Origin: Brachyspira sp.
GTDB lineage: Bacteria; Spirochaetota; Brachyspiria; Brachyspirales; Brachyspiraceae
Direction: 5' to 3'
NCBI RefSeq assembly: GCF_029258575.1
Contig: NZ_JARHYI010000023.1
Coordinates: 1-36,975 of the forward strand
Length of the DNA: 36,975 nt
Position numbers and translations under genes: made by a program. Within the stretch, counting starts at the first letter, position 1, and each line of letters starts with the position of its first letter. Below the pieces are notes generated by a model. It did no database searches. It worked only from the letters and a program-made list of their open reading frames with translations, and had not been told where the DNA came from. Below, piece by piece: positions 27,584 through 33,096 of this stretch.

Positions 27584-28672
27584 TTATATATTTGATACTA
27601 TTATATCTCCCATTTCCGAACATTTCACTTCTTTATACAGATAAGTCATAATATTATGTTTCGGCATTATATCATGAGTTCTATAACTGTCATCTATAGC
27701 CTTATAAACAGCTTTTTCTACATCTTCCGCCTCATCAAGCATATTGAAAGAATATCTAAACATCATAGCAAGAGAAAGTATAGTACCTATAGGATTTGCT
27801 AAATCTTGCCCCGCAATATCAGGAGCTGAACCATGAATAGGTTCATACATTCCGAAAGTTCCATCTGAAAGACATGCAGAAGGTGCCATACCTATAGACC
27901 CGCTTATAACACTAGCTTCATCAGAAAGTATATCCCCAAACATATTTTCTGTAACTATAACACCAAACTGAGAAGGATTAGCCGCTATCTGCATAGAAGC
28001 ATTATCAACATACATATCATTATATTTAACATCGCTGTATTCTTTAGCTAAATCATTCATAACTTCACGCCATAATTTTGAAGTATGAAGAACATTGGCT
28101 TTATCAACAGAAGTTAAAGGCTTTTTAATTTTTCTTGCTATCTCAAATGCTACTTTACCTATTCTTCTTATTTCTGTTTCAGTATAAAGCATAAGATCTG
28201 TTGCCTGCTTTACGCCATTAACAGTTTCAAATTTATGCTCTCCAAAATAAACTCCTCCTGTAAGTTCTTTAACCATAATAAAGTCTATCATATCCTTACA
28301 TATACTTTCTTTAAGAGGAGAAGCATATTCCAAAGATTTTAAAATTCTTGTAGGTCTTATATTAGCATAAAGATTAAGTTCCTTACGCAATTTTAATAAA
28401 CCTCTTTCAGGTCTGTTTTCAGGAGCAACATTATCCCATTTAGGACCTCCAACAGAACCAAGAAGTATGGAGTCAGACTTTTTGCATTTCTCTAAATTTT
28501 CATCTGTAATAGGAATTCCGTATTTATCAATGGAAACTCCTCCCATATCTACATACTCCAAATTAAATTTATGAGAATATTTTTCAGCTATTTTATTTAA
28601 TACATCAATAGCTTTATCAACTACTTCAGGGCCTACTCCATCCCCTTTTATAACTACAATATTTTTTTCCAT
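27584..28672 (-). CDS. leuB: 3-isopropylmalate dehydrogenase
   Basis: NAD-dependent enzyme for the third step of leucine synthesis. It begins IVVIKGDGVGPEVVDKAIDV, and has LLGSVGGPKWDN, LRKELNLYANIRP (substrate arginines), FIMVKELTGGVYFG, SVDKANVLHTSKLWREV with the catalytic lysine, and NMFGDILSDEASVISGSIGM. GSAPDIAGQDLANPIGTILS is the NAD-binding signature. Length of 362 is standard, and nothing looks damaged. AGGA lies 9-12 bases before the ATG. It is last in the ilvBNC-leu block, but the genes that should feed it (leuA, leuC, leuD) are decayed or absent just upstream, so its use is unclear. Confidence 0.96.
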   Translation of the reverse strand: MEKNIVVIKGDGVGPEVVDKAIDVLNKIAEKYSHKFNLEYVDMGGVSIDKYGIPITDENLEKCKKSDSILLGSVGGPKWDNVAPENRPERGLLKLRKELNLYANIRPTRILKSLEYASPLKESICKDMIDFIMVKELTGGVYFGEHKFETVNGVKQATDLMLYTETEIRRIGKVAFEIARKIKKPLTSVDKANVLHTSKLWREVMNDLAKEYSDVKYNDMYVDNASMQIAANPSQFGVIVTENMFGDILSDEASVISGSIGMAPSACLSDGTFGMYEPIHGSAPDIAGQDLANPIGTILSLAMMFRYSFNMLDEAEDVEKAVYKAIDDSYRTHDIMPKHNIMTYLYKEVKCSEMGDIIVSNI

Positions 28673-28709: not shown

Positions 28710-28964
28710 TTATAAAGAGTTCTTTATAGAGTTTAAAAGTCAATTAGAATTTATAATGTTTTTAATAAACTCTGAAAAAGGCTCTGCTTTATAACTTTCA
28801 TTTTTAGTGATATTTAATATTATACCATTATCAAAATCAACTTCAACCTCATCATTGGAATTTATTTTCTTGTTTGCCTCTTCATATTCCAATATAGCAA
28901 ATCCTATATTAATTGAATTTCTATAAAATATCCTAGCAAAAGTACATGCCCCCCTCCATATCTT
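28710..28964 (-). pseudogene. leuD: leuD relic (3-isopropylmalate dehydratase small subunit)
   Basis: Only the carboxyl-terminal part remains: [20 protein letters not shown], then the [11 protein letters not shown] and [18 protein letters not shown] segments, a stop, and LLNSIKNSL. This matches the usual LeuD end ([24 protein letters not shown]). The amino-terminal half, with NFGCGSSREHA, is missing. It reads on without a frameshift from the leuA relic, apart from one stop codon at 28965-28967, which shows a deletion joined the two genes. leuC (about 1.3 kb) is gone. Confidence 0.85.
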
Positions 28965-29446
28965 CTATTTTCCTATAACAGTTTTATCATCAGAAGCTAA
29001 TTTCACAATAACTTCACCCAAAGCATCTTCAGCAGAAAATTCTATAAACTAAAATTTTGTTTTAGCATAAGAAACATATTCTTTTATACTTTCTAATACC
29101 TGCCTCTAGTCATCTCTAATTTATACTTTAAATGTATATCGATTCTAGCTATCAATGTATGAAACTTGTATGTTTATCCTATACAAGTGCATCATAAACT
29201 CTATCTATATCTTTTTTTATTATATCTAGCCAAACTAGCCAATTTAGCATTTTGAATAATCTTGCCTACATCTCTTATGGCATTGAAATCATCTTCATAA
29301 CATATAGTAAAACATCTCTCTATAATATCAACTCCCAATTTATCTAATTCATACTCCATTTCTAATTTTTCGGCTAAATTCATAGTACAGCCCAGAGATT
29401 GTTCTCAGTATCTTAAAGTAGTATCAAAAATCTTAATCTTTCTCAT
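28965..29446 (-). pseudogene. leuA: leuA relic (2-isopropylmalate synthase)
   Basis: Fragments of the first leucine enzyme. From ATG 29446: RKIKIFDTTLR, a stop where the usual text is DGEQSPG, GCTMNLAEKLEMEYELDKLG and VDIIERCF, NAIRDVGKIIQNAKLASLAR, then a frameshift in an A run to NKKDIDRVYDALV. Next FHTLIARIDIHLKYKLEMTR, LESIKEYVSYAKTKF and FIEFSAEDA. From there it jumps straight to the carboxyl-terminal text ALGEVIVKLASDD and KTVIGK, so about 300 residues are deleted. The joint lies near 29022-29030, where both parts share Asp-Ala. The 60-codon open piece at 29201-29383 is part of this relic. Confidence 0.9.
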
Positions 29447-29513: not shown

Positions 29514-30533
<1,020 letters not shown>

Positions 30534-30542
30534 TTATTTTTA

Positions 30543-31070
30543 TTAAAATACAAATTTATTAGTTATATTCATATTTGGTACATCATCTCCAAGTTGTATA
30601 GATGTAACTCCTGTTCTTGAAAGCTCCAATATATTAAACTCTTTTAATGCATCTAAATATCCGTCTATAACTGTAACTGATGCAGTAATTTCAACTATCA
30701 TACTTTTCTTTCCTATATCAAGTATAATTCCATTATGTGCATTTGTTATATCGCATGCCTTTCTTCTATTGCTATCATCAATCTCTATTTTCACCAATGA
30801 TAAATCTCTTATTATACTATTTGAATGATCTATCAAATGCACCGAATGTACTTCTATAAGTTTTGAAGCCTGTTTCATAATATGTGATATATGAGAATCA
30901 TCGCATTCTGTTACTATGGTAATTCTGGATATAGTAGGTACACAGGTTACAGAACAAGTAATCGTTTCTATATTAAAACCTTTCTGACTGAATAATAAAG
31001 TTATTCTATTTAATACTCCTGAACTATTATCTACAAATAAAACTAAAACTCTTCTTTCTTTAACTTCCAT
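30543..31070 (-). CDS. ilvN: Acetolactate synthase small subunit
   Basis: Regulatory subunit that binds IlvB and gives valine feedback. The ACT domain is residues about 6-80 (RVLVLFVDNSSGVLNRITLL then FSQKGFNIETIT). The carboxyl-terminal half, ending in LSRTGVTSIQLGD, is normal. Length of 175 is typical. GGAG lies before the ATG, and ilvB stops 18 bases upstream. The name ilvH is equally used. Confidence 0.93.
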   Translation of the reverse strand: MEVKERRVLVLFVDNSSGVLNRITLLFSQKGFNIETITCSVTCVPTISRITIVTECDDSHISHIMKQASKLIEVHSVHLIDHSNSIIRDLSLVKIEIDDSNRRKACDITNAHNGIILDIGKKSMIVEITASVTVIDGYLDALKEFNILELSRTGVTSIQLGDDVPNMNITNKFVF

Positions 31071-31088: not shown

Positions 31089-32762
31089 TTAATCTACTAT
31101 TATATCATCTACAGTTCCGCCCGAAGGAATCATAGGAAGAACTTTCAAATCTTTATCTATAACACATTCTATCCATACAGGACATTTACATTCCAAAGCC
31201 TCTTCAAATGCTTTTTCAAATTCATTTATAGTTTCGCATCTAAAACCTCTAGCACCAAAACCTTCAGCTACTTTTACATAATCCATTCTTTTATTAATAT
31301 CAGTACTTGAATATCTTGAACCATAAAATATAGTTTGCCATTGTCTTACCATACCCAATGTGCTGTTATTAAGTATTATTGATATTATAGGCAAATTATA
31401 TTCAACTGCAGTTGCAACTTCATTTAAATTCATATAGAAGGATCCATCTCCCGTTATATGTATTACCCTTCTATCAGGCTTTGCAACTTGAGCTCCTAAT
31501 GCAGCACCATATCCATACCCCATAGTACCTAAACCACCGCTTGTTATGAAACTTCTAGGTTTTGTATGTCTTATATATTGAACTGCCCACATTTGATGCT
31601 GACCTACATCTGTAACATATATAGCTTCATCTTTAGTTTTATTTCCTATTATATCCATAACTTTACTAGGATAAATTCCATCTTTATTGGAATTTCTATT
31701 AGAATCATCTGTCATCTCTTTAGCTTTTAATAATGATAAATATTCAACCCACTCATCATCATTAACTTTTTTTACAAGCTTTTTAAATTTATCCAAAACA
31801 ATTCTCAAATCACCTATTATACTATAATCAACATAAACATTTTTATTTATTTCGCTTTTATCAATATCTATATGCACCTTTTTAGCAACGCCTCCGAATT
31901 TAGAAGTATTTAAAGCAACTCTATCACTGAATCTAGTACCAATAGCTAATATCAAATCTGCCTCATTTATAACCTTATTTGCAGTAGCAGAACCATGCAT
32001 ACCTAAAAGCCCTAAATTTAATTTTTCATTATATCCCAATACTCCAGCTGCCATTAATGTATGAACTGAAGGTATATTAGAATTAATCATAAACTCTCTT
32101 AATTTATCACTGGAATCTTTAGCCCCGCCTCCAAAATATATTATTGGTCTTTTAGAGTTATTTATTAATTCAGCAACTTCTTCTATAGTTTTTTCATCTT
32201 CCTTACTTATTGATGAAGATATAGGTACAAATTTAGATTTTGCAATAAATTCAGTTTCTTCAAAAGTAAAATTTTTAGGTATATCTATTAAAACGGGTCC
32301 CTTTCTTCCTGTATTAGCTATAATAAAAGCCTTTCTTATAGTATCAGCTAAATCATCTACACTTCTAACAACAAAATTATGTTTAGTAACAGGTATTGTA
32401 ATTCCAGCAATAAAAACTTCCTGAAAAGAATCTTTTCCTATCAAACTTTCTGGAACATTTGCTGTTATGGCAACTAAAGGCACACTATCCATATATGCAG
32501 TTGCTAAAGGAGTAACTAAATTAGTTGCTCCAGGTCCGCTTGTAGCAATAACCACTCCTGTTTTTCCGCTTACTCTTGCATATCCGTCAGCAGCATGACA
32601 GGCTCCAACTTCATCAGCTGGCATTATATGTTCAATTTTATCTCTATATTTATAAATAGCATCATATATGAATAAAGCAGCACCGCCCGGATAACCAAAA
32701 ATTTTATCTACGCCTTCTTCTATTAAAACTTCTATTATTATATCAGATCCGTTTAATTTCAT
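31089..32762 (-). CDS. ilvB: Acetolactate synthase large subunit
   Basis: Thiamine-diphosphate enzyme that makes acetolactate and acetohydroxybutyrate, first common step of valine and isoleucine synthesis. It begins GSDIIIEVLIEEGVDKIFGY and PGGAALFIYDA. The activating glutamate is in PADEVGACHAADGYARVSG. GPGATNLVTPLATAYMDS, a central FAD-type domain, and the TPP signature GDGSFYMNLNE through LNNSTLGMV follow. Length of 557 is usual. AAGGAG lies 7-12 bases before the ATG. It is the first large gene of ilvB-ilvN-ilvC. A small isoleucine- and leucine-rich ORF lies 124 bases upstream. Confidence 0.97.
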   Translation of the reverse strand: MKLNGSDIIIEVLIEEGVDKIFGYPGGAALFIYDAIYKYRDKIEHIMPADEVGACHAADGYARVSGKTGVVIATSGPGATNLVTPLATAYMDSVPLVAITANVPESLIGKDSFQEVFIAGITIPVTKHNFVVRSVDDLADTIRKAFIIANTGRKGPVLIDIPKNFTFEETEFIAKSKFVPISSSISKEDEKTIEEVAELINNSKRPIIYFGGGAKDSSDKLREFMINSNIPSVHTLMAAGVLGYNEKLNLGLLGMHGSATANKVINEADLILAIGTRFSDRVALNTSKFGGVAKKVHIDIDKSEINKNVYVDYSIIGDLRIVLDKFKKLVKKVNDDEWVEYLSLLKAKEMTDDSNRNSNKDGIYPSKVMDIIGNKTKDEAIYVTDVGQHQMWAVQYIRHTKPRSFITSGGLGTMGYGYGAALGAQVAKPDRRVIHITGDGSFYMNLNEVATAVEYNLPIISIILNNSTLGMVRQWQTIFYGSRYSSTDINKRMDYVKVAEGFGARGFRCETINEFEKAFEEALECKCPVWIECVIDKDLKVLPMIPSGGTVDDIIVD

Positions 32763-32886
32763 TAATAACTCCTTAATTTATTTTATAACCTTATAATTTA
32801 CATTATTATATTTCTATTTATAGAAACCTAATTTTAAAAAAGTATATTATTTTAGTAATTATGTGTTTTATTTATATTTTAGATAA

Positions 32887-33039
32887 TTATAACAGGATAT
32901 TAATAAAAATAGAGAAGAGAATATTTAAGATAATAGTGTTTTTCTTTGAATTAGTTGATTTAAAAACATTGTTAGCTGATGTATCTTGTTTTGTATTATC
33001 AAAAACAGAATACATACCATAAAAAGATGGCATATTCAT
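32887..33039 (-). CDS. Candidate leader peptide of the ilv operon
   Basis: A 50-residue ORF, MNMPSFYGMYSVFDNTKQDT through a carboxyl tail NTIILNILFSIFINILL and stop. AAGGGAG lies 7 bases before the ATG, and a promoter (33069-33096) lies just upstream. Ten of the last 16 residues are isoleucine or leucine; codons CTC and CTG, rare in so AT-rich a genome, are used there. This recalls attenuator leader peptides. An AT-only stem (32856-32862 with 32883-32889) covers its stop codon, but no convincing terminator precedes ilvB, so attenuation is unproven. It could equally be a tiny protein with one membrane helix. Confidence 0.5.
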   Translation of the reverse strand: MNMPSFYGMYSVFDNTKQDTSANNVFKSTNSKKNTIILNILFSIFINILL

Positions 33040-33068
33040 CTTTATTCTCCCTTATGTAAATTAAATAT

Positions 33069-33096
33069 ATTATAATATTTTTGAATAATATTACAA
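33069..33096 (-). promoter_or_regulatory. Promoter of the ilv-leu operon
   Basis: Minus strand TTGTAA (33096-33091), 16-base spacer, perfect TATAAT (33074-33069). The start, near 33062, is just ahead of the ribosome site of the small ORF. Confidence 0.65.

Follow-up and report, generated by a model that had tools for sequence, protein, structure and literature searches.

The 36,975-nt stretch of Brachyspira sp. DNA analysed here (contig NZ_JARHYI010000023.1; hereafter the window) carries, ahead of its ilv genes, a short ORF with an Ile/Leu-rich end, and this raises the question whether the ORF encodes a leader peptide that controls the ilv operon and, if so, by what kind of mechanism. The initial annotation had described a promoter and a ribosome site driving a 50-codon ORF, whose final 16 residues comprise ten Ile or Leu and which uses the codons CTC and CTG. 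Inspection of the sequence bore out this description. The ORF, whose product is MNMPSFYGMYSVFDNTKQDTSANNVFKSTNSKKNTIILNILFSIFINILL, is placed where the ilvBNC transcript is predicted to begin; a predicted promoter close to the consensus and a Shine-Dalgarno (SD) sequence precede it (Table 1), and the start of ilvB is 124 nt downstream of its stop codon. A recount of the final 16 residues, TIILNILFSIFINILL, gave 6 Ile and 4 Leu, with one CTC and one CTG codon. Since approximately 0.8 per cent of random stop-free 16-codon stretches of the same base composition reach an Ile/Leu count as high as this, the count in a single genome is weak evidence.

Table 1. Positions of the leader, the operon genes and associated features in the window
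Feature	Position	Strand	Remarks
Predicted ilv transcript promoter	33069..33096	minus	TTGTAA, 16-nt spacer, TATAAT; 10/12 consensus positions
Shine-Dalgarno of leader ORF	33047..33053	minus	AAGGGAG; from sequence
Leader peptide ORF	32887..33039	minus	50 codons + stop; counterpart in 24/24 relatives
Putative regulatory tail	32890..32937	minus	final 16 sense codons, Ile/Leu-rich, with CTC, CTG, ATC, ATT
Untranslated spacer	32763..32886	minus	124 nt, 12% GC, without intrinsic terminator; proposed output zone
Conserved weak hairpin/palindrome TTTCTATAAATAGAAA	32811..32826	minus	6/8 clades; missing in two
Shine-Dalgarno of ilvB	32769..32774	minus	AAGGAG; from sequence
ilvB, acetolactate synthase large subunit (proposed target of control)	31089..32762	minus	
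ilvN, acetolactate synthase small subunit	30543..31070	minus	conserved order
ilvC, ketol-acid reductoisomerase	29514..30509	minus	conserved order
leuA remnant	29072..29446	minus	several in-frame stops; intact in relatives
leuD fragment	28743..28937	minus	intact leuD here in G008 and G031
leuB	27584..28672	minus	intact

Relatives of the window were compared at the same locus. In the first set, which comprised 19 genomes of the genus including that of the window, ilvB was present in 18; it was also present in seven further genomes, and the comparison covered the 24 genomes that have DNA upstream of ilvB on the contig, the contig of G037 beginning inside ilvB. Brachyspira pilosicoli (L095) was among the relatives sampled. 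In all 24 genomes an ORF of 24-50 codons, preceded by a GGAG- or GGGG-type SD sequence, ends 92-134 nt ahead of ilvB, and the TATTGCAATATTA...TATAAT promoter block is recognisable across nearly all relatives. Conservation in 24 of 24 genomes places the leader tail beyond chance. As the initial annotation had suggested looking for, it is the Ile/Leu tail rather than the whole ORF that is conserved: the leaders are 24 or 43-50 amino acids long and their N-terminal part varies freely in sequence and length, whereas the tail rich in Ile, Leu and Val (ILV) is kept, including an ILLS core with an invariant Ser and an IL or ILL ending that are found across clades. With one genome per clade, Ile, Leu and Val make up 70% of the tail residues (90/128), 7% of the N-terminal part of the leaders (16/227) and 25% in the genes of the window. 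The front part of the leader is depleted of the regulatory residues, which goes beyond mere variability.

R1, a model that describes the tail and the region of the stop codon by sequence alone, gave exactly one strong match per genome, always at ilvB, a link that is exclusive; in G010, which is devoid of ilvB, and in G037 the matches were at background level only. Three weak R1 matches outside ilvB, the best one of G010 included, were inspected and no leader-like ORF was found; these look like chance matches. Simple rules detected no comparable upstream leader at 12 ilvB loci from other spirochaete families. No Rfam model, be it of a leader, a T-box or a riboswitch, matched the locus at or above its gathering score, the one weak match (E up to 5) being far below the cut-off, and the leader peptide was without match in Pfam and NCBIfam. 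G010, a member of the same genus with a smaller genome (2.0 Mb), is without ilvB, ilvD, leuA, leuB, homoserine dehydrogenase and the leader.

Synonymous codon choice in the leader tails was compared with that in ilvB of the same eight genomes (clade level). CTC and CTG accounted for 23 of 40 Leu codons in the tails vs 2 of 275 in ilvB (p=5e-22). For Ile, ATA was used once in 44 codons of the tails and 315 times in 440 codons of ilvB, ATT and ATC being favoured in the tails (p=1e-20), and all four Val codons of the tails were GTC (15/361 in ilvB, p=5e-6). The Asn and Ser codons of the tails showed no shift relative to ilvB in these eight genomes. Because the shift is limited to Ile, Leu and Val, the bias is tied to the decoding of these amino acids and not to base composition. 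TTA and TTG represent 68% of the Leu codons in the genes of the window; in the tail they are outnumbered by the other Leu codons and occur mostly at its two ends. The identity of codons specifying the same residue in different clades was 0.67 in the tail core and 0.66 for the Ile/Leu codons of ilvB; as the tail value is no higher than that of ilvB, the codon signal is a bias and not a frozen sequence.

The set of tRNAs bears on how these codons would be read. All 34 tRNA matches of G016 were typed: the Leu anticodons are UAA, CAA, UAG and GAG, the Ile anticodon is GAU, one of three CAU tRNAs may be Ile2, and Val is represented by UAC only. With a lone Val tRNA there is no isoacceptor choice for GTC, and one has to assume slow wobble decoding in this case. 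Two constant features, the Ser of the ILLS core and the final CTG, are also unaccounted for under the tRNA-sensing reading. At positions 32893-32898 and in the relatives this CTG, which is one of the rare Leu codons, occurs without exception in 24 of 24 genomes, following ATC, or ATT in three of them, and the other Leu codons vary.

Two explanations would attribute the conserved tail to the peptide and not to its codons. A small membrane protein, or a peptide resembling a toxin, that happened to be encoded upstream of ilvB would fit the hydrophobic C-terminus of approximately 16 residues, and the 24-amino-acid form, MKSFFKHFNQTNISIILLSLIIIL, does resemble a small membrane peptide. The initial annotation had named a finding that would speak against a leader, conservation as an ordinary membrane protein in which the Ile/Leu codons change; instead, the tail is kept and has a codon bias specific to Ile, Leu and Val. 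This bias, the lack of conservation in the N-terminus and in length, the strict co-occurrence with ilvB with no copy elsewhere and the absence of Pfam and NCBIfam matches make a membrane peptide an explanation of almost negligible probability, and they show that selection acted on decoding. The preservation of the ILLS core with its Ser and of the IL/ILL ending could, on the other hand, indicate a sequence-specific arrest peptide of the TnaC or SpeFL type, whose nascent chain stalls the ribosome when a metabolite is sensed. Such a peptide would have no need of selection among the synonymous codons of Ile, Leu and Val alone, and the residues vary, the window having Phe for two Leu; we regard it as very improbable.

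If the tail is a sensor, the proposed zone of its output step is the spacer between the ORF and ilvB. In a classical enteric-type transcription attenuator the position of the ribosome selects either a terminator or an antiterminator hairpin, and an ILV-rich leader directly behind the promoter and ahead of ilvB, an arrangement known from enteric bacteria and Corynebacterium, would agree with this mechanism, and so would the conserved weak hairpin in the spacer. However, an intrinsic terminator (a hairpin followed by a U run) was found between the ORF and ilvB in none of the 24 spacers, that of the window included. Folding of the alignment yielded no covarying fold and no mutually exclusive conserved hairpins, but a 7-bp hairpin alone, which is without covariation and absent in two clades. 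The leader of the window folded no better than shuffled sequences (z=-0.6), and the weak stem that had been drawn over the stop codon did not hold up, there being no conserved stem at this place; the one conserved hairpin is farther downstream, in the spacer. Thus, the locus does not show what defines a classical attenuator, and the lack of alternative folds that had been named in advance as the outcome contradicting attenuation is what the 24 genomes display. Because no terminator/antiterminator and no covarying fold was found, the classical enteric mechanism is unsupported, and some other output step is needed; we consider this mechanism quite improbable. Of the original proposal of translation-linked control, the leader peptide is strongly supported, on account of its conserved tail, ILV codon selection, ILV-poor front part and exclusive association with ilvB, whereas the enteric mechanism is not.

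Translational attenuation would require that the CTCCT of the tail pair with the SD sequence of ilvB or of the leader, which a stalled ribosome would set free. AGGAG is complementary to CTCCT, pairing between the tail and the leader SD (AGGAGAAUA with UAUUCUCCU) was predicted in 12 of 12 folded genomes, and in the 12-genome set the tails paired slightly better with their own ilvB SD than with swapped partners (p=0.05). When each clade was represented by a single genome, however, the ilvB signal faded (p=0.19), the pairing energies were in most genomes no better than those of codon shuffles, and blocking the tail hardly altered the predicted accessibility of the ilvB SD. As for the leader SD, own pairs had no advantage over swapped ones in either genome set (p=0.72 and 0.86), thus this pairing may be incidental. 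The CTCCT motif itself is lost in G000, G006 and G031. Translational attenuation therefore appears rather unlikely. Taking into account that a terminator, a covarying fold and sequestration of the ilvB SD are all unsupported, mechanisms without a hairpin remain.

The explanation that we favour as a whole, and hold to be highly probable on the sequence comparisons, is that a cis-acting leader peptide senses the charging of Ile-, Leu- and Val-tRNAs for ilvBNC(-leuACDB), most likely with Rho as the output; for the sensing part our confidence is very high. Judged by its sequence, the locus looks as amino-acid leaders in general do: a short ORF with an SD sequence of its own lies at the predicted transcript start ahead of a biosynthetic operon, codons for the operon's products accumulate towards the end of the ORF, and the rest of it drifts. 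We infer that the leader is translated and that a ribosome would pass its ILV-poor front part easily. When Ile-, Leu- or Val-tRNAs were short of amino acid, the ribosome would stall on the terminal run of CTC, CTG, ATC, ATT and GTC codons, and stalling on the tail would raise the expression of the operon; when amino acid sufficed, the ribosome would reach the stop codon and depart, and expression would be held down. The output would most likely be Rho-dependent termination within the untranslated spacer of about 120 nt, with the C-rich, G-poor tail as the place where Rho would load; a stalled ribosome would cover this place, and a finishing ribosome would expose it.

The Rho reading is suggested by the presence of rho in 26 of 26 genomes (above the family cut-off), by the C-rich and G-poor tail and by the long untranslated spacer, which, by analogy with E. 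coli, would be long enough for Rho to act. The C-over-G excess of the tail ranked among the highest 0.6% of sense-strand gene windows in 23 of 24 genomes and weak in G006, and it may follow simply from codon choice. Argued in this way from composition and by exclusion, Rho-dependent termination is put forward tentatively, with somewhat less than an even chance of being the output. In the enteric Rho-dependent leader ORFs tnaC and mgtL, stalling in a short ORF is proposed to decide the access of Rho to the leader RNA; their signals are different (tryptophan arrest; Mg2+ and proline), and they are unrelated in sequence to the Brachyspira leader. The mycobacterial cys leaders are similar in having regulatory codons near the stop codon, conserved DNA, no terminator hairpin and a proposed Rho-dependent control, but they respond to cysteine and not to Ile, Leu and Val, and the evidence for a Rho site was likewise called weak there (PMC1262725).

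The statement of the initial annotation that no such leader was known in spirochaetes was too strong, as a branched-chain-rich uORF had been predicted for the ilvB motif (WRC-14-1) of Leptospira (PMC8632094; PMC10272879), and the Brachyspira leader is therefore not the first suggestion of this kind in the phylum. Compared by its published description, the short Leptospira uORF lies similarly ahead of ilvB (at ~70 nt), but it is rich in Val and Thr, with at least three consecutive Val codons, whereas Ile and Leu dominate in Brachyspira (PMC10272879). The ilvBNC leader of Corynebacterium (ilvB-II motif) also has a peptide enriched in branched-chain residues (PMC10272879, PMC11857589); there a three-hairpin model describes an attenuator, in contrast to Brachyspira, where a terminator was not found. 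The attenuator peptide of Staphylococcus aureus shares an Ile/Leu-rich leader, an ilv-leu operon and an AT-rich genome, but it precedes ilvD and not ilvB, and has a terminator hairpin 52 nt past the stop codon, which Brachyspira is without (PMC5794164). Modelling of the enteric leu leader indicated that synonymous choice sets sensitivity and that UUA and UUG are poor sensors (Elf and Ehrenberg 2005; PMC1183508). That leader likewise employs rare Leu codons as regulatory codons, but CUA in combination with a classical terminator/antiterminator, whereas CUC, CUG, CUA and CUU are used in Brachyspira (PMC1183508). In the literature collection searched, we found neither a paper describing a leader of this kind in Brachyspira nor a useful Brachyspira transcriptome paper. 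It is conceivable, though slightly short of probable, that this terminator-less, genus-wide spirochaete leader for branched-chain amino acids combines selected rare or slow ILV codons with stalling that gates Rho, or another non-hairpin output, at the sensing codons themselves.

The order of the operon in G008 and G031 is ilvB-ilvN-ilvC-leuA-leuC-leuD-leuB, thus Ile, Val and Leu are its products. The genes leuACDB are intact in relatives, whereas in the window leuA and leuD are decayed (28743-29446, minus strand) and leuC was not found anywhere in the genome; the species may need leucine. The tail of the window has the fewest CTN Leu codons of the 24 (2 vs 4 in its sister G008), two Leu positions being now Phe. 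The loss of Leu codons might track the decay of the leu genes, but this is suggestive only, because it concerns one lineage. G006 was considered as a second lineage with an apparent leuA loss and was not counted, since an intact leuD sits at the edge of a contig in that genome and leuA is probably missing through a gap in the assembly. With leuA, leuC and most of leuD gone, the window's species provides a natural test case for whether the sensor changes along with the pathway. Upstream of ilvD and of homoserine dehydrogenase, a leader rich in Ile, Leu and Val or in Thr was not found, and trpE-type genes were not found in 13 genomes.

Two short motifs were also observed. The end of the ORF in the window (32886-32895), CTGTTATAAT, makes a perfect extended -10 sequence (TGnTATAAT), which arises where the ORF of the clade ends in CTG TTA TAA; it is not conserved throughout the genus and might serve as an additional promoter after the leader. 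In the upstream regions of ilvD, ATTCTACTAATAGAAT, which resembles the spacer palindrome TTTCTATAAATAGAAA, lies over the -10 region, and the palindrome is possibly an operator.
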